Below are positions 1 to 52,631 of a stretch of 64,000 nt of DNA, one piece after another. The DNA is from a virus. The stretch is from IMG/VR virus record IMGVR_UViG_3300020411_000980, positions 1-64,000 of that record. One strand, 5' to 3'. Under the pieces are notes generated by a model. That model searched no databases. It saw only the letters and a list, made by a program, of their open reading frames with translations, and was not told the origin of the DNA. Position numbers and translations under genes: made by a program. Each line of letters begins with the position of its first letter. Positions within the stretch are counted from its first letter, which is position 1.

Positions 1-3000
1 TAACCGAAACCAAACTCATTATTCTTAAGTTTCTTGATCTTACCAATAGATTTACCTTGTAAGAACACAGAAGCACCCGATCCTTCATCAGGAATCACAA
101 CATCTAATATTGCACCAGAACCTGCAAGTAGAGGTCCTAGGATACCTGGTATAGCATCTACATCAATAGAAGCAGTCTTATAACCTTTACCTGCTGAAGT
201 TAGAGTAACATCAGTGATAACACCTTCAAAGTCTCCGTCATCTTGAACAGTGATGTTACAAGTAGCACCTTCACCATCTCCATCAATAGGAACGTTATAG
301 TAAACACCATTTACGTACTCAGTACCACCATTTGTGATTCTAACCTTCTCAATTTCTCTGTTAGAAGCAATATCAGTAACAATTGGTAGTCTCTGATAGA
401 ATCCACCTGCATTTACAAGTTTGATATCAGATATTGGACCAATTGCCTTAACTGAGGTTGTTGAGTAAGAAGAACGAGCATTGCCAAATTCATTATTACC
501 AACAGGAGCATTTGTCTTTTCAGGTTCATTTAATAGTCTAAAGGCGAATTTTTTACCAGCATCGGTTACAGAAGTAACTCTGAATGTGCCATCATAAGGA
601 GATTTAATAACGTCAATGAAGGATCCTTCTCCAACTGGTGAATCTGCACCTGTTCTAGATGGGTCAAAGTAATATGAAATATTAGTAACATCCTCATTAA
701 TGACGAATTTAACCAACGGAGTTGGTGAATCATCATCAGTAAATCCAGGTGTACCCTCTCTAATAATGTTAATGAATGGATATTCCAGTTTATACTGGTT
801 ATCTCTAGAGAATGATAGGAAGTATCCAAGGTTAGATTCATCATCAAGGTCAAATATGTACTGATGACCTCTAACAAAGAGGAATTTAGGATGTTTTGCG
901 TAGATATTAACGTTAGATACTGAATTTCCACTACCAGCAAAGGTTGGATCCTGTACAGCAGTACCTCTCATACGGAATGAGAAGTCTCTTGAGTTAAAGA
1001 CCTCTTCTACGAAGAACGAACCATTATAGTCATTTGTAGCAAAGTTCTCTGTAAATATGATCTCATTTTCTACAAAATTGTGTCTACTAGAAGCAGAACA
1101 GTAAACAAGGTCAGTATTTACTAATGCACCACTAGGAATTACGTCCTTATTAAGTTGTGCAACCAAGGATATCTTCTTAACACCAGTCAAACCAGTGAAT
1201 GTTGCTATCTTACCAGTTTCATCAACAGTAAACTGAAGGTTGACAGCATCAGCGTCAATAGTATCTCCTTTAATAAATGATGAATCTTGATATATCTCTT
1301 CAATCTTAATAGTATAATCTTCTGGAGAGAATGGCTTCCAAGATGCAAAAGCACTCATTGTAGAACCATTATATGAAGTATCTGCAAGATCTATCTCATA
1401 TATGCCAGATGCAGAAAGATATGCCCAAGAAACAGCACCATCAGATACAATACCAGTTGTATGTGTAGGTGGAATAGTACCAGATGTACCAGGAGAGGTA
1501 CACTGATATAGCTTCTTATCGTTATAAACTATGTCTTCTGTAGCATATACAAAGTTAGTTGCCCAAATTGGATCGGTTTTTTGCTCTGTAAAGTTCCATT
1601 CAAGGTCATTTACATCATTAGCAGTTGATTTTAATAGTTTTGAAGTGTCAAAATTACCTGCAATCTTACCAATCTTGCAAGAATTGGTTCCAGATTCAAC
1701 AATTGTTCCATATGCAGATACAACATCGTTACCACCAATTACAGAATACTGTTGTAATATTGCTCCTTTAGTGAAAGTAGCGTCCTGATTGAAGTTAATT
1801 GTCTTAACAAGGTCAATTAGAGCATATTTTGCATCTCTAAAGTAGAATTTTGGTACAACAGTCGTTGTAAGAAGCAGTTTCTTACCACCAGGAGTCGGAA
1901 TAGTAGCAGTTCTATTACCAAAATTCTGATCTGTTGATGTTACCGTGAATATACCAGGTTGATGTGTAGAAACAACATCACCATAATCAAGAATTTGAAT
2001 ACCTGCAGGACCAAGAACCCAAGGATTCATTGCTACGTTCTGGGTATTAAACGTATAATTGCTCTCAGAGGCGATATTGAGAGTATGTCCTGTCTCAACA
2101 TCATTAAGATTAAAGGATCCTAATGCTGTCTTGTCTTTATCAACCTTATAAATGAATCCTTGTGCAATACTATTAGTACCAGTAACTAAAGCAGAAGTAA
2201 ATGTATCATCATACTTAGCAGTAGGTGAGACAACTAGGTTATCAATCCATCCAATCCAATTATTTGTTGCGTTAGGAGTTGAATTAGATCCAAGTGTTAC
2301 ATCTTTAAGGTTAATATCAACTGTTGTACTTGTAAGTACCTGTGTTTCAATACCATTAACATATACACGATACTTGTAATCACCAACACCTACACGATCT
2401 TTAACTAAAGCAACGTGAATAAACTCCTCGTTATTAAAGATTGCTAGGTAGTTTGCAGCAGTGGAGAATGTTGTAGTACCAGTTATATCAATCCAAGTCT
2501 TACCATAGTTGGGACTTGTCTGATCTGCATCAAGACCAGCTTTAACTGTATTACCTATAGCATCAGTTACAGTGAAGAATTCTGGTTTTGTGTTAGCAGC
2601 AGTATACTGAGCAGTTGAAAGTGCCCAAAATGCTTCTACAGTATAGCTTGTAGCAACATCTGATCCATAGAGCATCGTCATAGCATTAGATGCATCTAGT
2701 TTTACTGAAGAAGCACCATCATACTTCTTAGTATCATCAATTACAGCATTACCAGTTGCATACCACTGTTTGTTAGTTCCAGTAGCAAGAGTGTCATTAT
2801 ATGTGTCATCAGCAAGGTTATCAGCAGTATTCCAGTTAAATATCGCTAACTGATCTGCTTCTACCTTATTACCAACAACAATTGTGTCACCAGAACTGTC
2901 GTTAGATACAGCAATTGCTTTAAATCCAATACCATCAGTCTCACTTGCAGTTGAAGCAGTAATTACTGTACCTGTATTCCAACCAATTTTAAGAGTAGTG

Positions 3001-6000
3001 GATTCAACTTGATTAAATGCTCTTTCTACAGAACAAGATACATCAACATTACCAAAGATATCAAACTCTACACCACCATTATGAACAGCATTATAGGTTC
3101 CAGTAGGAACAAATATTCTACTTTGCTCAGCTTCTGTAAAGTCACCATCATCAAACTTGGTGTATAAAACACCATAATCCTTACCATTAGTATCTTCTGC
3201 TGTAGCAGTTACATATACAGCACCATATTCATCAATGGTGAATGTTGGGTTCTTAAACTTATAACTGGCATTAGTGATCTTTTTAGACCATACAACCTCA
3301 ATAGTTGCAGTATCATAATAAGTTTCACCAATTATGATGTCAGATGTATTATCAGGTTCAGATACACCACAGAATAGGAAGGTATCCTTAGATTTCCACT
3401 TAATTTGATGTAAATGCTCACTAACTTCTGCAGAAGCAATCTTACGCTTCTCCATCATAGATCCATCAAGATCTAATAATGCAACCCACATATCATCTGG
3501 TTGCAATGAGTTAGCATCGGTATAACCACCGATCATACATCTACCGTCTTGATCTAATGAAATGGTAGTTGCATAATCTCTTCTTGTAGCACCAGAGATA
3601 CCAGCAATATCACGTTGCCACTGAAGAATACCATCAGGGTTATTATTACCATCAAATCCTGAAGTATACTTAGCAACAATAATATCTGGGTTATGAGTAA
3701 TATTTGTGATGTTAGTAACTGTCTCACCAATTACGTAGATATTGTGAGGATTACTATTCTCAACATATAAAGACTTCCATCTTAGTGATTTTGCACCAGC
3801 AGGTACTGTAGGTACTAGAGTTCTCTGCCAAAGTAAGCGACCATCACTATTAAACTTAGCAAGAATACCACAAGTATCACCATCAGTAAGATTTCTTTCA
3901 GCTGCAACGTAGATAGTACGATCTTCAGCAACTTTAACGTCATTTATAGAAACAGTACCAGTTGCTTCTTTCAAGAATGATAAGAAGTAATTTGCCTTCT
4001 TATATCTCTGTGGATGTGATACACGAATCTTAGGTGGGTTATCTACGTCATATCCAGAACCAGAGTTGATTATATTTGCTTTTTTAACGGCACCTGCTTC
4101 GGTTCTTTCTAAAGTTAACTTGAAATCTTGTCCAATAGAAGAAATAAGTTCATATGTTGGAGGAAGTTCAGAAGAATAACCAACACCTTCCTGAGTAATG
4201 TTTAATTGCTCAACACCAGCAATAACCTTAACTTTAAGAGTTTTATTAGTGTCATCAAGAACAGGTGTACTCTTAACGATAATTTCATCATTAACACGTA
4301 ATTCGTGTTCTTCAGCAGTTGTAATCTGTCCGTAAGGTACGTCATTAGTCATATAAGACGAATAACCTGCTATATCAAGACCTTTAACTGAATTGACCTT
4401 AGCAGATGCACCAAATCCTTGTGTGTCTGTATTATCAAAATATAGTTTGTCACCAACCTTATAAGAAACACCTGGGTTCTCAACAACAAATCCATCAACC
4501 TGAGCATCCTCAAACTTGGTAGTAGTCTCAATATCAATATCCACCTCAGATCTTGTAGAGACTCTAGGGTAGTAATCAAATAATTGTAATACGGGTTCTT
4601 CAGCGATATTGATTGGTGTAGTATCTTCAAGGTTATTGATTACACCGTCTCTATTAGTATCTTCAATTTCAAAGATAAGTTCCTCACCAAGTTCAGTTAC
4701 AAGGATATCAGTGTCTTGGTTTGGTTGACGTTCAATATCAATATCAACATCTTCGTAAGGATCACGGAAACGAACAACATCATCAGGAATATTTGTCTGT
4801 ACAGCATCCTGACTGTAGTTCCACTCATCTGCCTTAGAATATAACTGAGGACCAGCAATATATGGGAATACTGGATTACCTGCATCAGATGCGTCAATTG
4901 AGATGAAGTATGCGTATACACCTTCAGGGAATTGAGGTGTCTTACAGAAACGACCATTATACTGGTCTAGATCACCATATTGGAAAGTATACTCAAAATC
5001 TTCGATAAATGAACCTGCAGGATAGTCACTTAGTAAAGGACCATCTGAACGAACTGGATTAGGGTTGGTTGCAGCGTCATATATGAGTACTGGCTTGATA
5101 CGGTAAGAAGATCTAATACGACGTATACCAGAAGACTGGTCAGTAGCATCTATGTAACCATAAGGACCATAAATGGGGTTACCATCAAATGCCCATCCGA
5201 GGATTGGTGAGTGTTGCCATCCTGTAGATAATTCTTGTAATTGTTGTGTTGCTTGGTTCTTAAAGACATTATCACCCAAAACATAACGCAACTGCTTAGG
5301 ATCTGATAAGTGTGCGTATTCACCACCATATTGAGTGTTATATCCTGCAAATACGTAACCACGTGCTGTATCGAAAGATTGACCTAACTCATCTTGTAGG
5401 TTTCTTGTCCACTCAAATACATTAGCGGTAAACTCTGCCATTTCACCAACTGCTTCTAACCTTACAGTTGTTAGACCAGTAGTGTATCCAATACCTCTGT
5501 TAATAACAGAAACACCAATAACCTTACCTCTATCCTCACCAACAGTACCAATAGTTGCTTTTGCAACAGCACCATAACCATCACCATTGATTACAATCTC
5601 AGGAGCAGTGGTATATCCCTTACCTGCAGCAATGATAGCAATAGAAACGATACGACCGTTAATAATAATTGGTTGTGCAACAGCACCTTCACCAGAATTC
5701 AGTTTAACATTAGGTGAAGAGGTATAAGCAGATCCTGAAGTATCTACACTTACAGATTGAATTGGACCTCTTACAGCAGCAGTTGCAACAGCACCACTAC
5801 CATTTCCACCTGAAATAGACACATCAGGTTGTGAGGTGTATCCTTGACCTGGGTTTTCAACCAGAACCTTAGAAACTACACCGTTAGTAATAACAGCGGT
5901 AGCAGTAGCACCGAATCCACCACCACCCACGATAGAAACAAGAGGACTAGAAGTATAACCACTACCTCCCGCAGATACATCAATTTCACTTAATTGTCCG

Positions 6001-9000
6001 TTAACAACAACACTTGCGGTAGCACCTGTACCGCCACCACCTGTAATTTCAATAAGAGGAGGGTTAGCAGCGTCATATCCTTTTCCAACATTAGTAATAT
6101 TAATTCCAGTTACACCACCATACTTAATTTTACTCTGTGACTTATAAGACCAAGCAGATACACCATTAACCCACGCACCAATAGGACCAAAGTTGGTATC
6201 TTCCCGTTTAGAGATCGTATTGATAACTCTAGGAATACGGATCAGTTTACGCTGGTTACCTGGAAGTAGTGCAGATCCTACAAAAGGACCAACTTCATAG
6301 TTTGGTATACCAGATGATGCAATGTATGAATACTGGTTATTAAAGAACGTATTCTGTACGTTTGTAGTAAAATCTCTAATTGCAATGCTAATTCCTTCTT
6401 CTGGAGACTTACCTTTGTTCAAGTCAACAGATAAGAGAATATTACCTTGAGGTGAAGCATCTGCGGGTGCAGGAATGTTATACTCAAAGATAAAATCACT
6501 AATACGTGATGTTACTAGGAACGTACCGTTGAACACAGTTGGGTTTGCACCGTAGATAGTAACAGTGTCACCAACAAGAAGACCGTGCTTATTAGAGCAA
6601 GTTACGGTTGCAGTCTGATTATTAAGACCACCAGGTACAACACCATCAACATTAATCAGTTTCTTGACGTTATATAACCAAGAAGTGATACGTTGATCCA
6701 CAGAAGTAGATCCAAGAGATGCAACGTTTAATTTGTCACCAGGTAGGTAGTATGAACCAGTATCTGTCAATACGGTGGATTTTGCGTCTGCAATACCCAA
6801 AACACGCATTTTGATCTCAGTAGGAAGACCACGATTAACATATACAAATATTTGTGAATGAATTACAGTACCTGCATCCCAATCTTCTACAACACCATTC
6901 TCAGAACGTGTACATTCGATGAACTGGTTAAGAGTCTTCTCCTTATACTGAACCTCCTCATCGTCATTAATAAGGATTGTACCGTTTCTTTCAGGCCAAC
7001 CAATAGTAGAGTCAACAGTAATAATGGATTCTGTAGTACTAAGTTCCTCAACCAATGTGGTTTTATAAGGAATTGTGAATGAACCTTGTAGAGTTTCCTC
7101 AGATATAGCAAGTTCATATACAGTTCCTACACCAGTATTGATAGCAATAACGTTCTCAATCAGTGCAGATGCGTCCTTAACGTTGATATCTACCTGATCT
7201 GCGTACTGAACTAGCTGTGCATCTAGTAAATTTGTAGGATCTCCACTTATAAGTTCCGCACGGAGAACTGTATCTACGTTCCAAGATGCAGCAGATGGCT
7301 TAATAACCTCATCTTTTGGATAAGATACGTCCACATTCTCTGAGAACAGCATCTTAAAGAGGTACTGTGTAGAGATCTTTGTACCTTTAGATGCGTAGAA
7401 ATCACTAATAGTTTTGATAATCTGCGGAGCATTTACCTTTTCATAGTCAATTTCCGCATTAGGAAGGTACTGGTTTACGTATCTTCTGTATAATTCCTTA
7501 GCAAAGAGTGTATCTAGGTTAGAAATAGTAGATCCAACCTCGTGAGAAGATTGAACTGTATCCGCTTCTTTAGAGTAAACTTGATTACCTTTCTGATCAA
7601 ATGAACTTACAGATGAAACACCACGCTTACAATTAACAAAAGCAGATGGTTGATATCCAGATCCACCATTATGGATGGTAAATCCAGTAATTTCACCAAA
7701 ACCAACGTCACAAGATGCTTCTGGAGCAGGAGGAGCAGCAATAAAGACTTTAGGAGGTTCTACATCAGAGTATCCACTTCCAAAACTTGTTATGTTGATA
7801 TCAGTGATCTCACCATTGAAAATGGTTGCAACAGCAGTAGCACCAGTTCCACCAATAGGTTGATCAGCAATATCCTTCCTATTATCAACAATATACACAG
7901 ATGGAGCATCAGTATAACCTGCACCACCAGTTAATAGTTCAATATTAGTTACTCTACCACCAGTTACACTTACATCGAGGATTTGAGCACCTACAGGATC
8001 GATAATCTTTGCCCTAGGTGTTGTTTCATATCCTTGTCCACCTGATACAACAGTAATTCCATCAACCTTACCATCAGCGTTAATAGTAGCAACAACATTA
8101 GCTGTAATAGCATTCTCACCAGTTGGAGGATCCAAATAGACTAATGGAGGTGTAGTGTAACCAGAACCAGAAGAAATAACACTTATAGACCCTTCTTGGA
8201 TAGATCCTGTGTGAAGTGTTGGTTGACTAATGGTTGCACCACCAGGATTAACAAAACTGATAGATGGAATCTTATCGTAACCACTTCCAGAACTGTCTAC
8301 AATGAGTTCTGAGACCCCTTCGATAGAATCACTAACAATTGCCCTAATTTGAGCAGTCTTGCCTTCAGGATCCACTGGAGGGTCAACTACAACGATTGGA
8401 GGGTTATTTGCAGAGTAACCTTGTCCTGAAAATAGTAATCTAGTGTCTTTAATACCATTTACTAATGCTTCAGCAGTAGCATTAGCTCCTGGACCTTTAG
8501 TAGACGCAATAGTAATCTTTGGAGCAAAACTTAAACGATATCCACTACCACCAGTCTTAACAATGACCTTATCTACAACACCTTGCTCAATATCCGCAAT
8601 AGCACTAGCACCAGCACCAAATTCAGGTGCTATCATCTCAATAGATCTAATATTGATCTGAGATCCTTGTGCAACGTCATTCTTAAAGATTAACTTATCT
8701 TCAAAGATAGTAAAATCTTCATAAGGACGCTTTTCTACTCTGTTTACAACAACTACTGATGAAACAGTTGATAATGGGGTATATGGAACGTTATTGTTAG
8801 TTAAACTAAACTCTTTAGCATCTGCAGTAACACTAATAGGGTCTATAGAACGTACTGGAATGCTTGTGTAACCAATAAGGTACCGAATAGTATTAATTGC
8901 ACCTGTAAGTTCTCCTGTAGGGGGAGCAGGGGGTGTCTGCAGACGTATCTTATCACCTTCGATAAAATAGTCGATATTTGGGAATAAAAACTCGTTATTT

Positions 9001-9503
9001 ACAACAACTAAGAGATGATCAGCAGTTTGGGGTGAAACTGGCTTACCTAAGAGTCTAAGATCAAATAAAGTCTGACTATTATCAAATTGTGAAGATATTG
9101 GTTCAAATTCTTGTATTTTACGATCAAATTCTGCCTTATTAACACCAGGAGTGAATACAATGTCAGGAGAATGAGTAACAGTCTCGTAATAGATTACCTC
9201 ATCATCAATTTGTATTGTACCGTCTTTCTCTAGGAAATAATTAACATTCTCAGCAATAATATCCTTTTGAGTAGGATCAACCTTCTCCAACACAGCAGAT
9301 TGTGAAGATAGGAAATTAGGATCAAACTCTCCAGAACCAATATCAGTATATCTTAAGATATTATTCAGTATGTCATACGGACGACCTGATTTCTCTTGAG
9401 ATCTGTAGTATTCTGAAAGAAGATTGACAAATTGTTCGTTATCTTCTCTGATGAATGCAGGTATCTGATCCTGCACCCTATTTGAGACGGTAATAGCCTT
9501 CAT
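1..9503 (-). CDS. Giant virion structural protein (C-terminus beyond window)
   Basis: The frame opens with ATG at 9501-9503 and is still open at the left edge, so at least 3167 residues are encoded and no stop is seen. Spot translation near the start, near 6000, near 3000 and at 1-60 stays in one frame. Reading N to C: a conserved cyanophage-type start (MKAITVSNRVQDQIPAF); long runs of a Gly-rich repeat of the form GxGYxxxPxVxIxGGxGxGA (about residues 280-620 and 1130-1315); a YHYH-like domain with the motif AFDGNPIYGPYG (about 1435-1470); propeller-like repeats with GRLLWQRTL-type strands (about 1850-2135); and a LamG/concanavalin-like domain (about 2215-2430). It lies directly downstream of gp6 and gp25, which fits a large fibre or baseplate-peripheral protein that may bind host glycans. 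The virion role is inferred; the domain names are from motif recognition. Confidence 0.85.
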   Translation of the reverse strand, partial: MKAITVSNRVQDQIPAFIREDNEQFVNLLSEYYRSQEKSGRPYDILNNILRYTDIGSGEFDPNFLSSQSAVLEKVDPTQKDIIAENVNYFLEKDGTIQIDDEVIYYETVTHSPDIVFTPGVNKAEFDRKIQEFEPISSQFDNSQTLFDLRLLGKPVSPQTADHLLVVVNNEFLFPNIDYFIEGDKIRLQTPPAPPTGELTGAINTIRYLIGYTSIPVRSIDPISVTADAKEFSLTNNNVPYTPLSTVSSVVVVNRVEKRPYEDFTIFEDKLIFKNDVAQGSQINIRSIEMIAPEFGAGASAIADIEQGVVDKVIVKTGGSGYRLSFAPKITIASTKGPGANATAEALVNGIKDTRLLFSGQGYSANNPPIVVVDPPVDPEGKTAQIRAIVSDSIEGVSELIVDSSGSGYDKIPSISFVNPGGATISQPTLHTGSIQEGSISVISSGSGYTTPPLVYLDPPTGENAITANVVATINADGKVDGITVVSGGQGYETTPRAKIIDPVGAQILDVSVTGGRVTNIELLTGGAGYTDAPSVYIVDNRKDIADQPIGGTGATAVATIFNGEITDINITSFGSGYSDVEPPKVFIAAPPAPEASCDVGFGEITGFTIHNGGSGYQPSAFVNCKRGVSSVSSFDQKGNQVYSKEADTVQSSHEVGSTISNLDTLFAKELYRRYVNQYLPNAEIDYEKVNAPQIIKTISDFYASKGTKISTQYLFKMLFSENVDVSYPKDEVIKPSAASWNVDTVLRAELISGDPTNLLDAQLVQYADQVDINVKDASALIENVIAINTGVGTVYELAISEETLQGSFTIPYKTTLVEELSTTESIITVDSTIGWPERNGTILINDDEEVQYKEKTLNQFIECTRSENGVVEDWDAGTVIHSQIFVYVNRGLPTEIKMRVLGIADAKSTVLTDTGSYYLPGDKLNVASLGSTSVDQRITSWLYNVKKLINVDGVVPGGLNNQTATVTCSNKHGLLVGDTVTIYGANPTVFNGTFLVTSRISDFIFEYNIPAPADASPQGNILLSVDLNKGKSPEEGISIAIRDFTTNVQNTFFNNQYSYIASSGIPNYEVGPFVGSALLPGNQRKLIRIPRVINTISKREDTNFGPIGAWVNGVSAWSYKSQSKIKYGGVTGINITNVGKGYDAANPPLIEITGGGGTGATASVVVNGQLSEIDVSAGGSGYTSSPLVSIVGGGGFGATATAVITNGVVSKVLVENPGQGYTSQPDVSISGGNGSGAVATAAVRGPIQSVSVDTSGSAYTSSPNVKLNSGEGAVAQPIIINGRIVSIAIIAAGKGYTTAPEIVINGDGYGAVAKATIGTVGEDRGKVIGVSVINRGIGYTTGLTTVRLEAVGEMAEFTANVFEWTRNLQDELGQSFDTARGYVFAGYNTQYGGEYAHLSDPKQLRYVLGDNVFKNQATQQLQELSTGWQHSPILGWAFDGNPIYGPYGYIDATDQSSGIRRIRSSYRIKPVLIYDAATNPNPVRSDGPLLSDYPAGSFIEDFEYTFQYGDLDQYNGRFCKTPQFPEGVYAYFISIDASDAGNPVFPYIAGPQLYSKADEWNYSQDAVQTNIPDDVVRFRDPYEDVDIDIERQPNQDTDILVTELGEELIFEIEDTNRDGVINNLEDTTPINIAEEPVLQLFDYYPRVSTRSEVDIDIETTTKFEDAQVDGFVVENPGVSYKVGDKLYFDNTDTQGFGASAKVNSVKGLDIAGYSSYMTNDVPYGQITTAEEHELRVNDEIIVKSTPVLDDTNKTLKVKVIAGVEQLNITQEGVGYSSELPPTYELISSIGQDFKLTLERTEAGAVKKANIINSGSGYDVDNPPKIRVSHPQRYKKANYFLSFLKEATGTVSINDVKVAEDRTIYVAAERNLTDGDTCGILAKFNSDGRLLWQRTLVPTVPAGAKSLRWKSLYVENSNPHNIYVIGETVTNITNITHNPDIIVAKYTSGFDGNNNPDGILQWQRDIAGISGATRRDYATTISLDQDGRCMIGGYTDANSLQPDDMWVALLDLDGSMMEKRKIASAEVSEHLHQIKWKSKDTFLFCGVSEPDNTSDIIIGETYYDTATIEVVWSKKITNASYKFKNPTFTIDEYGAVYVTATAEDTNGKDYGVLYTKFDDGDFTEAEQSRIFVPTGTYNAVHNGGVEFDIFGNVDVSCSVERAFNQVESTTLKIGWNTGTVITASTASETDGIGFKAIAVSNDSSGDTIVVGNKVEADQLAIFNWNTADNLADDTYNDTLATGTNKQWYATGNAVIDDTKKYDGASSVKLDASNAMTMLYGSDVATSYTVEAFWALSTAQYTAANTKPEFFTVTDAIGNTVKAGLDADQTSPNYGKTWIDITGTTTFSTAANYLAIFNNEEFIHVALVKDRVGVGDYKYRVYVNGIETQVLTSTTVDINLKDVTLGSNSTPNATNNWIGWIDNLVVSPTAKYDDTFTSALVTGTNSIAQGFIYKVDKDKTALGSFNLNDVETGHTLNIASESNYTFNTQNVAMNPWVLGPAGIQILDYGDVVSTHQPGIFTVTSTDQNFGNRTATIPTPGGKKLLLTTTVVPKFYFRDAKYALIDLVKTINFNQDATFTKGAILQQYSVIGGNDVVSAYGTIVESGTNSCKIGKIAGNFDTSKLLKSTANDVNDLEWNFTEQKTDPIWATNFVYATEDIVYNDKKLYQCTSPGTSGTIPPTHTTGIVSDGAVSWAYLSASGIYEIDLADTSYNGSTMSAFASWKPFSPEDYTIKIEEIYQDSSFIKGDTIDADAVNLQFTVDETGKIATFTGLTGVKKISLVAQLNKDVIPSGALVNTDLVYCSASSRHNFVENEIIFTENFATNDYNGSFFVEEVFNSRDFSFRMRGTAVQDPTFAGSGNSVSNVNIYAKHPKFLFVRGHQYIFDLDDESNLGYFLSFSRDNQYKLEYPFINIIREGTPGFTDDDSPTPLVKFVINEDVTNISYYFDPSRTGADSPVGEGSFIDVIKSPYDGTFRVTSVTDAGKKFAFRLLNEPEKTNAPVGNNEFGNARSSYSTTSVKAIGPISDIKLVNAGGFYQRLPIVTDIASNREIEKVRITNGGTEYVNGVYYNVPIDGDGEGATCNITVQDDGDFEGVITDVTLTSAGKGYKTASIDVDAIPGILGPLLAGSGAILDVVIPDEGSGASVFLQGKSIGKIKKLKNNEFGFG

Positions 9504-18784: not shown

Positions 18785-19007
18785 TTTTTTCCTGCGGAAT
18801 TTTTTACATATCTAGGTACCATTTTAACGAATTTCAATAATATGCCTGTCCCTATACTTTTGTAGGTTACACTTTATCAAAAAATTAATATAGAGTTCTT
18901 ATCACATAGTGGTGCTAATTGCAAGCGAATTGTTAACAATTAGTAACGCTACGGGTTTGTGTTAATTAAGTGTTGACATTTGTCTCACTATGTGTTAGAT
19001 AGTGACG
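18785..19007. other. Intergenic stretch with promoter-like boxes and short repeats
   Basis: No ORF is supported here. On the minus strand a TTGATA-N18-TATAGG box pair lies upstream of the NlpC/P60 gene. On the plus strand TTGACA (18973-18978) is 17 bases from TAGATA (18996-19001). The core ACGCTACGRGTT occurs twice (near 18946 and near 19004). A 20-21-base sequence at 18954-18974 recurs with one indel at 19501-19520. It is the regulatory interval between two minus-strand gene groups. Confidence 0.5.
18973..19001 (+). promoter_or_regulatory. Possible plus-strand sigma-70 promoter
   Basis: TTGACA at 18973-18978, a 17-base spacer and TAGATA at 18996-19001. The -35 is a perfect consensus; the -10 is weak. 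It would transcribe antisense to the 80-residue gene. It shares the upstream GTGTTGACA with the stronger plus-strand promoter at 19594. Confidence 0.35.
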
Positions 19008-19250
19008 CTACGAGTTGTTAATACTTTCCTCCTCATATTGCACGTCATAACATAAACCTTCCGCAATGAAATAATCGCATAATTGTTGATACTGAAGCAA
19101 CTCGTTATTTAGTCCACAATCTATTAAGAACTGTGCGAGGTCTATTTGTTCATCAGGTGGCAAATTACCCTCGTCTAATAGATCCAAATAGATCGCATAT
19201 TTACTGGGAATGTGTATAGTCAATATCCAAATCTCCGTGGGAACTATCAC
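19008..19250 (-). CDS. Small conserved cyanophage protein
   Basis: Up to 80 residues. The conserved-looking part begins at about residue 15 (SKYAIYLDLLDEGNLPPDEQ) and resembles small cyanophage proteins with a KYxxYxxLLDxG start. The listed ATG overlaps the upstream gene by 50 bases; a shorter version from a non-ATG start near 19205 is possible because that gene stops there. No function is known. Confidence 0.6.
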   Translation of the reverse strand: MIVPTEIWILTIHIPSKYAIYLDLLDEGNLPPDEQIDLAQFLIDCGLNNELLQYQQLCDYFIAEGLCYDVQYEEESINNS

Positions 19251-19344
19251 TAACCTCGACCAGATTAGCGTCTAAAGTATCATTTTTATCGACCATTTTG
19301 TCGATCCATTCTTTACTATTAAACGGTTTAATTTCTTTGTCCAT
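19201..19344 (-). CDS. Small acidic hypothetical protein
   Basis: A 47-residue ORF starting MDKEIKPFNSKEWIDKMVDK at ATG 19342-19344. The start lies inside the 3' end of the preceding 52-residue gene, a typical overlap here. Asp/Glu-rich C-terminal half. Not recognised. Confidence 0.5.
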   Translation of the reverse strand: MDKEIKPFNSKEWIDKMVDKNDTLDANLVEVSDSSHGDLDIDYTHSQ

Positions 19345-19486
19345 TTGTGTTAGTTTCCTGGAATGATTGTGAATTGGATTGTTTATAATCAAGTGCTTTA
19401 TTTTGCCTTGATTTGTTTCTCTTTTCTCTCAAACTTTTGGGTCTATTTGATACATACGTGTCGTTACGTTTGTAAGTCCTTCCCAT
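19328..19486 (-). CDS. Small basic conserved cyanophage protein
   Basis: A 52-residue ORF (ATG 19484-19486, TAA 19328-19330) found by reading the gap. It begins MGRTYKRND and has a Lys/Arg-rich RPKSLREKRNKSR segment, like a family of very small proteins in T4-like cyanophages. It is the first gene after the strong minus-strand promoter at 19530-19558, so it is likely expressed early. Role unknown. Confidence 0.7.
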   Translation of the reverse strand: MGRTYKRNDTYVSNRPKSLREKRNKSRQNKALDYKQSNSQSFQETNTNGQRN

Positions 19487-19529
19487 TGGAAATTAAAGCG
19501 AGTTTGTGTTAATTAGTGTTCATACGGTT

Positions 19530-19558
19530 AGTATAAACGAATTGTGGAAAATTGTCAA
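19530..19558 (-). promoter_or_regulatory. Strong sigma-70 promoter (minus strand)
   Basis: The minus strand reads TTGACA (19558-19553), exactly 17 bases of spacer, then TATACT (19535-19530). The -35 is perfect and the -10 is one base from consensus. It points to the small genes at 19486 and below. A DnaA-box-like TTTTCCACA lies within the spacer, so DnaA binding would block it. Confidence 0.75.
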
Positions 19559-19561
19559 TGG

Positions 19562-19574
19562 TTTGTGTCACAAA
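19562..19574. promoter_or_regulatory. Operator-like palindrome between divergent promoters
   Basis: TTTGTG-T-CACAAA is a perfect 6-base inverted repeat around one central base, lying between the two outward-facing -35 boxes. That is where a repressor controlling both promoters would bind. No regulator is identified. Confidence 0.45.
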
Positions 19575-19593
19575 TATGTGTGTCCCCTATGTG

Positions 19594-19622
19594 TTGACAA
19601 CTGTTCCGTTCTTATATATACT
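19594..19622 (+). promoter_or_regulatory. Strong sigma-70 promoter (plus strand)
   Basis: TTGACA at 19594-19599, a 17-base spacer and TATACT at 19617-19622. It points rightward although no plus-strand gene follows. The transcript would begin near 19629 and run toward a T7 run near 19690, then antisense to the NUMOD4/HNH-like gene. It may make a short non-coding or primer RNA. Confidence 0.65.
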
Positions 19623-19760
19623 CCTAACTCTGCTATTCCTCGTGGGGTTTATAACATTTAAGAGCATCAATATAAAACACTAAAGTATGTTTTTTTAACC
19701 ATTTATTTAATCCACAAAATATTACTTAGTTGTGGAAATCCTGTGGAAAAGTAATACAAA

Positions 19761-20090
19761 CTATACCCATTTTAAGTTATTACTATTGTCGTTTAATTTG
19801 TCTTTGTCAATGTGAATAACGTTCTGCAAATTAGTTCCGCCTGGATGATAAGCAAGAGCACATAATCGTGCACAACGTCTAACAACTGTCTTACCATTTT
19901 GTCTTAAAGTAACACGTCTATATCCATTTTCGTTTAAATGTATCTTTAATTTCTTCCATTTTCCCCACTTAGTTGAATATATCTGTCCTTCGTTAGATAC
20001 AAAATAGTCCTCGTAATTAGGGATAGGTTTGTATAAAATACCAGCATCATCTTGATAGGTATTGTCATCAATTTTTTTAAAGGGATTCAT
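19761..20090 (-). CDS. NUMOD4/HNH-type homing endonuclease-like protein
   Basis: A 109-residue protein. The N-terminal half (IPNYEDYFVSNEGQIYSTK) is a NUMOD4 DNA-binding motif. The C-terminal half resembles the HNH_3 nuclease (GYRRVTLRQNGKT, then HIDKDKLNDNSNNLKWV). In the usual motif the segment before LAxAYHP starts with a conserved His (xHRLV); here it reads RCARLC, so that His is missing, and the protein stops right after LKWV. It may be a shortened or inactive homing nuclease, or one used only for DNA binding. Confidence 0.7.
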   Translation of the reverse strand: MNPFKKIDDNTYQDDAGILYKPIPNYEDYFVSNEGQIYSTKWGKWKKLKIHLNENGYRRVTLRQNGKTVVRRCARLCALAYHPGGTNLQNVIHIDKDKLNDNSNNLKWV

Positions 20091-21118: not shown

Positions 21119-21435
21119 TAGATTGCCACCTCGTAACCTGAAATGAAATCCTCAGATCCATTGCGTGTAGATACGAACCACTCCCAATTCTTTTGAAATA
21201 CGGATGTGCCATAAGCAAATTCGTAGCAAAGAGCGTTTAGACGTGATTTCGTGGTGTTTGACTGCCAACCGCCATCAAATAGTGTAACAACTGACTGAGA
21301 GATTTTACCGATTAGATTAGAATGAAGATAAACAAGAGCATCATTTTCAGGTGTGATTTCAACCCTAGTGTTACCTGATTGCCAGTTAACTCTGTTTCTT
21401 GCTGCTCTGTTCATTGCTGCTTCAATCTTTCTCAT
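21118..21435 (-). CDS. Conserved cyanophage hypothetical protein
   Basis: A 105-residue protein with a recognisable core (NWQSGNTRVE, then FDGGWQSNTTKSRLNAL) that resembles a protein common in T4-like cyanophages. No catalytic motif is visible. It lies immediately after a terminator followed by a TATAAT box, so it probably starts its own transcript. Confidence 0.7.
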   Translation of the reverse strand: MRKIEAAMNRAARNRVNWQSGNTRVEITPENDALVYLHSNLIGKISQSVVTLFDGGWQSNTTKSRLNALCYEFAYGTSVFQKNWEWFVSTRNGSEDFISGYEVAI

Positions 21436-43722: not shown

Positions 43723-46700
43723 ATAACCATCTCTCTTATATGGATCACCGACCCTGTAGCAGGTGGGGTCGAAATACTAAAGTCAACTGCGTTACCTGAT
43801 ACCTGATAATCAACACCAGGAATCTGACAAACACCATTATTGAACACCATCACTGAATATGATGTGTGTCCAGGAGAAATAGCGAATCCAGTAGTGGATC
43901 CGTTTCCATTATATACAACCCCGTTGTTATTGTTAGCAATACCCGTTGCAAGAGTATATTTATCTTGACAACCATATGTACCAGTAACATCTAGGTTACC
44001 ATTAATATAAGTGTTACCTGCAATCTTCATCCTATTGGATGCGTCAGGTGCCATACCAATACCATAATTTGTTACACCAGAGAATCTACGTGCAGTAATA
44101 GGTGTAGTATCGGTTAGACCGAACTTATACCATATACCTGTCTCGTAAATCCAACCTAATGAATCACCAGCTTGCCAGTCAATGTTATAGATAATATCGC
44201 CATCATTAAATGCTAATGTCGAATCAATATCTGGTAGACCTGTTCCATCATCTTCTGCTAGGAAGCTCTGCTTTAGTACAGTTCCATCATCGTTGGCATA
44301 CGTCAATTTTATTGTCTGAATATTTTCCTGAGCAGTGATTCTCTTCTGGAAAGTCACTGGACCTGAGAATACAGATTCAAGTTGGTTAGATGCACCACCA
44401 ATTACAGTTAGTTTATCAGTAAGAACAACCTCAGAGAATGTCTGAATGGTAGTTCCTTCCTCACCAACAACATTTAACTGTGCAATATCTTCGTTGGTGA
44501 TCTGACCAGTAATCGGGTTAATAACCTGGTTACCAACATATAGTTCACCATCACTGTTAACACCAGAGTAGTAAGCAACACCTGCTGCTTCCTTCAATGA
44601 CTGTGACAGTCTAACCTGTGTTGGTGATAGAACCTCAACCTGTGTAGATGGGAATGCAGTACTGTAGTTACCTGGACCAAAACCAAGGTATTCAAACGTA
44701 TGACCTGATGCTCTAAGGATAGAGTATCTTCGTAACTCAATCAGCAATGGAGCAACAGAGTTGTCAGCGTTTAGTTTGAGTGGAATCTTTCTTTCTTCCT
44801 CATCACCTAAACGTGCAGTAACAACAACAGCATTCAATGTATTAGAAGTAGTGTTATATCCTAAGTTGTTCTCCTGTTCTAATAGGAAGAACTGTGCAGT
44901 CTCCTTACTAATTGATAGTTTAGTATCTTCATTAGGTTGTGGTTGTGCACCGTCAGTTGTGGTAACCTTACCAAGAATATCATTATCAGCAACAGAAACG
45001 GCAGGTGCTGGGTCAGCAACTGGGTTATCTCTGTCAAATGTAGGATAAATGTCTACAGCATACTGTGAGAATGCAAAGTCATCAAAGTTTGATGTTGCAG
45101 GAGATACTGAAGCATTAAGAATTGAGAGGTAATAGATACCGTCAGCAACACCACGTTCAAATGTCTGGAATGTTTCTACTTCATAGATGTAGTATGTCTT
45201 ATCATATGAAGGTGAGTTAGTCTCTGAAGATCTAGGTTGTAATACGAAACCAGTAATGGGTTCTCTAGGAATCGGGAACGCATCCTTGTCCAGTACGTAT
45301 CTAAATCTGTAGATTCTATCTTTAAGGTCTCTTGCATCAGGTATTCTTCTAATGAATGAAGTAGGAGTAAATCCTAGGTTCTGATATTGTGAGTTAGCAA
45401 TAAGAGTTGTATAGATGTCATTATTAGTAGAATCAACTTGTAGATACCAGTTTGACTGGTTAGTATCATACTTGATAGGTGACTCATCTGAACCAGGTAA
45501 TGAACCTGTAACGTCAGGTCCTGATGGATCAATCTTTGCAGTATGAGTTGTTGGTTGCTGTGCACCTGAAGCAATCAACAGTACATTGATTTGGTCAGGA
45601 GTTGTTGGACCATCCTTACGGGCACCAACTGTATAACCCTGAATCTTACTTGGTGGTCTAGCATCCTCATTGGTATAACCATAGAGATATAACTTAGTTG
45701 GGTCTGCTGCTGCTCTTATCTTAGCAATATCAAATGTTACCCAGTTAATAGAGATTTCAGGAATATCACTAATTGCTTTAGGTGGAATTATATGTGTTAA
45801 TTGACCTGCTTTATCTTTCGTGAATGACGCTGCTTTAAAGCCTTTAGATCTGAGAGAAGTGTTACCAAAGTTTGAGTTCGAGTTGGTAATCGAGAGGTCT
45901 CCTCCTGAGTCAGAGAAGAAATGATCTCCGAATCCGACAGCGAACACCGAGACGACCTGGATGAATGCGTCGTTACTTGCGTAGATGTGTCTATGTCTCC
46001 AACCTTTACGGTATTTACATAGCCCGTTAATGTGTGCACCAGATCCTGAAGCTTGTGCTTCATAGTTTCCAGTTGACGGGTTGTATAGTACGAATGCTCT
46101 GTCATCTTTCTGTAGCGATATGCCAGTGAACTGAGCAACAACCATTGATTTGAAACCAGTTGCTTCAGCACCATCTGCGTGCATACCATTGATACCCCAA
46201 ACTGATCTTAGAGAACAGTTAAAGACATATGGTGAAGCTGAGTCAACTGTATCAATCTCAACTTTAACCAGTACGTTAGATCCTATAGCATTACCACTTG
46301 GTTCTGCTGACATCTGATACGTAAACTGGTTACCTTGTGCTGACGTGACAAGGAACGAACCATTATACAAATTGGAGTCGGTCTCAGTTGGTCCTGTTAC
46401 ACCACTCAAGTTAACAGCAACACCAACAGAGAATCCGTGGTTAATTGGGTTATCTTGAATGTCAACAGTAAATGCAGTTGCAGTCTGACCATTTCTGATG
46501 ATTTGAGATACTCGGAATTCATCAGAGATCGGACCAACAATCCTGTTTTCTTCGACTCTTGCCTGTAATTGGTCTTGAGCGATAGTACCAGAAGTATCAG
46601 GAATAGTTGCGTATGCCTTAGATATCTTCTGATAGTATAATTCTAGATCGTCATTATTAGCGTACTCAAAGCAAGTAATTTTGTGATGAGAGAAGTTAGG

Positions 46701-52409: not shown

Positions 52410-52430
52410 AATAGCCTCGTGAAAAAAGAA

Positions 52431-52538
52431 GGAGGGAGGTTGGATTCCTGTATACCAACAAGAGATGGGCATTTCTACAGTTTAGAAATCATCTCTGCCT
52501 ACGACCCGACTGGTAAGTCGATTCTCCTCTCGGAGCAG
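52431..52538 (-). ncRNA. Cloverleaf-like structured RNA candidate
   Basis: In the 222-base gap between two genes, five helices can be read on the minus strand. GGAG (52527-52524) can pair with CTCC near the 3' side. CGACT-TACC-AGTCG is at 52520-52507. AGAGATG/CATCTCT (52496-52490 with 52467-52461) continues into ATTTCTA/TAGAAAT (52489-52483 with 52477-52471), a 14-base-pair arm with a 3-base bulge. GTTGG/CCAAC is at 52459-52439. GGAG can also pair with the CTCC just upstream (52535-52532) around a GAGA tetraloop, so the element could switch. It is not a normal tRNA (no 7-base anticodon loop with U33). Either strand could be the active one. Confidence 0.5.
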
Positions 52539-52631
52539 CACCACCTGTGTCGTATCACCTTAACCAGCTATATGCCAGTAAGTTTATTCAGTCACTCCCA
52601 ATGTGCTGATCAGGCACAAATATATTATATA

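Follow-up and report, generated by a model that had tools for sequence, protein, structure and literature searches.

What is the function of a 274-base gap (19487-19760) that separates two small ORFs of a T4-like cyanophage, one of 52 aa (19328-19486) and one of 109 aa (19761-20090)? A preliminary description of the window, by which we mean the whole stretch of DNA analysed (bases 1-64,000 of a virus record that is 102,352 bases long), had read this gap as an origin-like switch made up of divergent promoters, an operator palindrome, DnaA boxes and AT-rich DNA. The tblastn and blastn matches of the window were cyanomyoviruses, and the Kyanoviridae-specific PF23790 (Kyano_Gp96) was located at 21121-21435. 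Sequence comparisons of the gap, whose features are listed in Table 1, indicate that it is a conserved cis-acting element of the Kyanoviridae (T4-like cyanophages). We found no description of these sites in the open-licence literature searched.

Table 1 Features of the gap and of the adjoining 52-aa gene in the window.
Feature	Position	Strand	Basis or remark
DnaA box 1, exact TTTTCCACA	19742-19750	-	motif search; at -264 relative to the start codon of the 52-aa gene
DnaA box 2, ATTTCCACA, 1 mismatch	19731-19739	-	11 bp from box 1
DnaA-box-like TAATCCACA, 2 mismatches, inverted	19708-19716	+	read from the sequence
DnaA box, exact TTTTCCACA, within the minus-strand promoter spacer	19543-19551	-	few clades only
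Promoter TTGACA-N17-TATACT of the 52-aa gene	19530-19558 (reads 19558->19530)	-	pattern search
Promoter TTGACA-N17-TATACT, directed into the AT-rich core and boxes	19594-19622	+	pattern search
Palindrome TTTGTGTCACAAA	19562-19574		closest relatives only
Putative DNA unwinding element	19669-19728		least stable 60-mer of the 64-kb window; overlaps the AT-rich core
Conserved core, AT-rich block up to the reverse -35	19592-19709 (approximate limits)		alignment A1, model R1
52-aa gene (MGRTYKRN...), phrog_1464, function unknown	19328-19486	-	family match

The two outward-facing promoters, the two exact TTTTCCACA sites, the two near matches and the AT-rich DNA of the preliminary description were all located in the gap. 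The exact motif occurs twice in the 102,352-base record, both times in the gap (1.3 expected by base composition), all three copies of TTTCCACA in the 64-kb window are in the gap, and the only two matches to TTGACA-N17-TATANT in the 102-kb record are the divergent pair itself. Equally good boxes scattered elsewhere, which that description had named as an observation against it, were not present in the record. The six nearest relatives (L007-L012) have box 1 at the identical site, and its 11-bp pitch with box 2 is shared with other phage clades and with cyanobacterial genomes. The position of the inverted near match is occupied by TTATCCACA in L013 and L014 and by exact inverted boxes in other clades. 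The palindrome is perfect and does lie between the promoters, but it was seen solely in the window and the same six closest relatives, its middle base being A or T, so that the proposed operator role finds no support beyond them; the palindrome falls outside the wider conserved element. The bases between both -35 hexamers (19575-19593; gene sense CAACACATAGGGGACACA...ACAAAcC) show conservation that extends well past the hexamers, both in several clades and in S-WAM1. At 18896-18997, downstream of the next small gene, the promoter-side sequence is partly repeated (TTTGTGTTAATTA...TTGACA), and a 25-nt inverted repeat was also observed.

To compare the region among relatives, we searched with the 52-aa ORF and used the best 80 of 139 IMG/VR loci, together with the window and three isolates. 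Removal of near-duplicates (more than 60% of upstream 12-mers in common) and of loci with short upstream sequence left 46 loci, including the window and the three isolates, and 40 of them had at least 290 bp upstream. A common layout was observed upstream of the gene despite very different sequence, and the arrangement that had been described for the window is kept across both the IMG/VR loci and the cultured isolates. The 46 loci contained 97 exact boxes in the 26.2 kb from -400 to +200 of the ATG versus 10 in the other 324 kb, while 200 anagrams of the motif gave a mean of 0.53 and a maximum of 7 in the same places. At least one upstream box was found in 35 of the 40 loci with full upstream sequence, two or more in 27 and none in five, and 20 of the 40 also had a box no more than 200 nt past the ATG. 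In 17 of 28 cyanophage records, all exact copies lie within 1 kb of the gene, as read off the match coordinates. Spacings of 11, 12, 21 and 23 bp between boxes recurred among loci, and many relatives contain a second box cluster about 350 bp from the first. The observed cluster is far from chance; chance or composition as its cause was excluded by anagram, reversed-motif, shuffle and random-place controls. The orientation of the boxes relative to the core is mixed among loci and isolates, and a rule that boxes always point toward the core was rejected, being broken by L022, S-ShM2, Syn9, S-PM2 and S-H38.

The promoters are conserved as well. The pattern TTGACN-N16-18-TANNNT was found in the forward direction, that of the 52-aa gene, in 29 of the 40 dereplicated loci and in the reverse direction in 35, compared with a mean of 1.6 for each at random places in the same loci, and promoter-like hexamer pairs in both directions were found in 24 loci versus 0.29 at random places. 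The site had been suggested to link phage replication or early transcription to host DnaA levels. A box within the forward promoter spacer was found only in the window, L007-L014, L025, L026 and L028, and direct control of the promoter by DnaA would therefore be a local variant at most. Together with the boxes flanking two well conserved divergent promoters, and with the known action of DnaA as a transcription factor, as described in PMC8203912, the spacer box would fit a switch in which DnaA represses or activates early genes according to the host DnaA level, without any origin. We consider such a switch unlikely. In most clades the boxes border the least stable DNA, at a distance of 130-190 bp from the forward promoter, or else lie some 100 nt into the gene; no conserved ORF was seen in the reverse transcript among the loci; and promoter control by itself leaves the conserved low-stability block unexplained. 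Nor does the reverse transcript have a conserved fold, since RNAalifold returned 0 pairs on either strand for 31 sequences, which ruled out a structured RNA from the reverse promoter; Rfam gave no match at the element.

Comparisons of 20 cultured cyanomyoviruses showed that the element, consisting of boxes, AT-rich core and divergent promoters, recurs in isolates. Ten of the 20 (S-SZBM1, S-WAM1, S-ShM2, S-H38, S-PM2, Syn9, S-SM2, Syn19, S-SSM5 and P-SSM7) have two or more exact boxes no farther than 300 bp from the core, and 27 of the 81 boxes over the 20 genomes were within this distance, with 0.24 expected. In S-SSM5, the only two boxes of the entire 176 kb lie at the core, 31 bp apart. The divergent promoters of S-ShM2 are flanked by two box pairs even though this genome has the small gene at another place; in both S-ShM2 and S-H38, 8-16 kb separate the element from the relative of the 52-aa gene, and the gene is therefore not a fixed companion of the element. 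The five control phages (T4, RB49, KVP40, P-SSP7 and Syn5) contained 0-5 copies of TTWTCCACA each, never clustered. In the deposited annotation of S-PM2 (L340), tRNA-Asn and tRNA-Leu are placed over the DnaA-box cluster at 19177-19333, and these calls merit a check.

A written forecast for four isolates, in which Syn19 and S-SSM5 were to carry the cluster and P-SSM7 and P-RSM4 were not, was right in three cases and failed for P-SSM7, a phage from Prochlorococcus that carries a cluster. The cluster was present in 9 of 13 phages of Synechococcus versus 1 of 7 of Prochlorococcus (one-sided Fisher test, 0.029, with phylogeny uncontrolled and with host labels taken partly from phage names). A rule that boxes occur only in Synechococcus phages is broken by P-SSM7, and because the forecast failed there, the link with host genus is only a tendency. 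The P-SSM7 genome (NC_015290) contains a second exact DnaA-box pair at 46602-46631, about 600 bp past the first pair.

The motif itself is that of the host. TTTTCCACA is described as the cyanobacterial DnaA box in in-vitro binding work in Cyanothece (PMC4674748) and in an account of the S. elongatus origin, for which 11 copies are given (PMC3480399). We found pairs of TTTTCCACA at 11-12 bp pitch in 70 of 97 cyanobacterial genomes and in none with the reversed control. Among genomes of 1.6-1.9 Mb, the size of those of Prochlorococcus, one of six contained such a pair, and Prochlorococcus is said to have no DnaA box near dnaA (PMC4674748).

Further evidence comes from boxes inside the small gene, where the second box group covers codons 34-44 in many relatives. 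The in-gene box is read as TTT TCC ACA (Phe-Ser-Thr), and the reverse box spans Val-Glu-Lys. Among 52 distinct gene sequences, all 21 Phe-Ser-Thr triplets were encoded by TTTTCCACA versus 2 of 15 in other long frames taken as background, TCC accounting for roughly 10% of the Ser codons of these loci, and all seven xVEK stretches contained TGTGGAAAA; these counts are inflated by relatedness, but the boxes occupy several codon positions and are found on either strand. Since Phe-Ser-Thr is always TTTTCCACA in this gene, the DNA itself, rather than the protein, is constrained, which suggests that predicted binding sites for a host-type protein are kept under selection within a phage gene. The boxes are very probably real DnaA sites under selection. 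Such exact host consensus, clustered and retained even within coding sequence, would also be expected of a decoy that titrates host DnaA as phage copies rise and halts new rounds of host chromosome replication. A decoy seems quite unlikely, because the boxes are few per genome, neither spread nor amplified, and are linked to the same low-stability core and promoters, and a decoy needs no fixed geometry.

For the core, we used a sequence-only model (R1) built from 31 sequences of alignment A1, seven of them from isolates. Of 16 isolates scanned with it, 15 gave a core match at E<=1, a convincing one in only some of them. S-RSM4 and S-H38, neither of them used in the model, matched at E 3e-9 and E 2e-8; P-SSM2, S-SM2 and S-SSM7 matched at E 4e-4 to 5e-3; matches in P-SSM4, S-SKS1 and P-HM1 were weak or unconvincing; and S-CRM01 was the one of the 16 scanned with no core match. 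Four further genomes, added once the model was complete, all matched it at E<1e-9. Scanning for the core as a hand-typed pattern with one mismatch allowed gave no useful matches. The least stable 60-mer of the window begins some 40 nt beyond the point near 19629 at which the plus transcript is expected to start, and the mean stability profile over 35 loci peaks at -218. With 40-mers, the element ranked in the least stable top 0.5% in all five sequences compared (the window, Syn9, S-PM2, S-WAM1 and S-ShM2); with 100-mers it was less extreme, at 8.8% in S-PM2 and about 2% in Syn9 and S-ShM2. The boxes adjoin the putative unwinding element.

The core outlives the boxes in several lineages. P-TIM40, P-RSM6, P-RSM4 and S-RSM4 keep the core with no exact boxes at it, and L042, L056, L060 and L066 keep both the core and the 52-aa gene family with no exact upstream DnaA box, and these retained cores would fit an origin consisting of promoter and AT-rich core alone, of the R-loop type known from T4, at which TTTTCCACA binds some other protein, for example a phage-encoded one. 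We know of no phage initiator that would account for the TTTTCCACA sites, and this alternative appears very unlikely given that the motif and its 11-12 bp pitch are identical to those in cyanobacterial genomes. Because some relatives keep the core without boxes, DnaA is neither universal nor needed everywhere; under the DnaA-recruiting reading, box-less lineages with the core would rely on the promoter and R-loop route alone.

What had been called origin-like held as to anatomy, that is, clustered boxes, the least stable DNA and an early-type promoter reading into it; DnaA binding and a replication start at this site are what such an anatomy would predict. We regard it as fairly probable, though well short of assured, that the element is an early replication origin recruiting host DnaA, in which boxes were added to a T4-type promoter and unwinding element. 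After infection, RNA polymerase of the host sigma-70 type would fire from both outward promoters, which are evident in the sequence. The plus transcript would enter the least stable DNA about 40 nt from its start, remain hybridised as an R-loop and prime the leading strand, as at T4 oriF. Host DnaA would bind the TTTTCCACA sites clustered at the distal edge of the unwinding element, as well as the second cluster that many relatives have about 350 bp off, so that the DNA is opened or held open and the replisome can load; the identity of the motif, its clustering and its selection are observed for this step, and the binding is predicted from them. T4 later shifts to recombination-dependent replication, which would presumably take over in cyanophages as well. 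GC skew does not decide the case: Syn9, S-PM2, S-WAM1 and S-ShM2 have no clean turning point at the site, and the skew falls gradually beyond about 40-45 kb in Syn9, S-WAM1 and S-ShM2. Points against the origin reading are the loci and isolates that have no boxes, the mixed orientation and low number of the boxes, and their presence in P-SSM7 despite the stated lack of a DnaA box near dnaA in its host genus.

If an origin of this kind operates, phage DNA synthesis would be tied to the DnaA supply of the host, and thereby to its growth state and to light, so that in abundant ocean phototrophs the replication of phages would depend on host DnaA; lineages that lost the boxes would have escaped this control, and the T4 superfamily would include a DnaA-using origin. 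That a single DnaA-licensed origin imitating the host oriC serves to start replication in many T4-like cyanophages seems to us an evenly balanced possibility. The comparisons provide base-exact candidate origin sites in ten cultured phages, Syn9, S-PM2, Syn19 and S-SSM5 among them (at 52.6 kb of the Syn9 record, 19.25 kb of that of S-PM2 and 49.3 kb of that of S-SSM5), and the box-less phages serve as natural comparisons, as do L042, L056, L060 and L066 for the use of DnaA.

Gene-context analysis showed that the neighbours of the element are a 2OG oxygenase gene, an ORF with NUMOD4 and HNH and the phrog_1464 gene, and that a dnaN or dnaA neighbourhood is absent. The element is a phage element and not an oriC captured with its genes. 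The NUMOD4/HNH endonuclease ORF (the 109-aa ORF, 19761-20090) adjoins the box cluster in the window, and since the 2OG oxygenase gene adjoins the cluster in other relatives, a homing-type gene may have inserted by the putative origin. Just upstream of the 2OG oxygenase gene, a perfect minus-strand TTGACA-N18-TATAAT promoter (20849-20820) and terminator-like hairpins were observed. Elsewhere in the window, a strong match to the manA RNA motif (RF01745) was found at 52429-52619, and the apparent lack of ORFs at 3-9503 is explained by one minus-strand frame, 3167 aa or longer, that spans the region and runs off the window.

Like the cyanobacterial oriC, the phage element has the box TTTTCCACA, a pitch of 11-12 bp and boxes adjoining AT-rich unstable DNA, and its clustered species-type boxes are rare elsewhere in the replicon, as is characteristic of DnaA origins. 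It differs from the cyanobacterial oriC, which lies beside dnaN, in having no dnaN, in its divergent early-type promoters and small phage genes, and in its fewer boxes, usually two or three versus the 11 quoted for S. elongatus.

The T4 origins oriF and oriG combine, in about 100 bp, a promoter with a downstream AT-rich unwinding element and R-loop priming, and oriE has an early promoter that does not need MotA (both PMC3016281). Cyanomyoviruses are reported to lack motA in PMC2984593, in which a single theta origin is predicted for Syn9 and the replication mode of other cyanomyoviruses is given as unknown. Like oriF and oriG of this related phage group (Straboviridae), the cyanophage element has a promoter (19594-19622, plus) reading into AT-rich unwinding DNA (19669-19728), a layout conserved among loci. 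Unlike T4 and RB49, which have no box cluster, it has host DnaA boxes beside the unwinding element; the T4 review contains no mention of DnaA (PMC3016281).

Like the origin region of lambda, an unrelated phage, the element combines promoters with host DnaA boxes. Lambda encodes its own initiator O with iterons, and iteron-type repeats were not seen in the window element. In lambda, DnaA boxes are described near the origin, at pO, together with DnaA-stimulated transcription (PMC3985674). It is because of the layout resembling T4 oriF and oriG, the boxes at its edge and this precedent from lambda that we read the element as a probable early origin.
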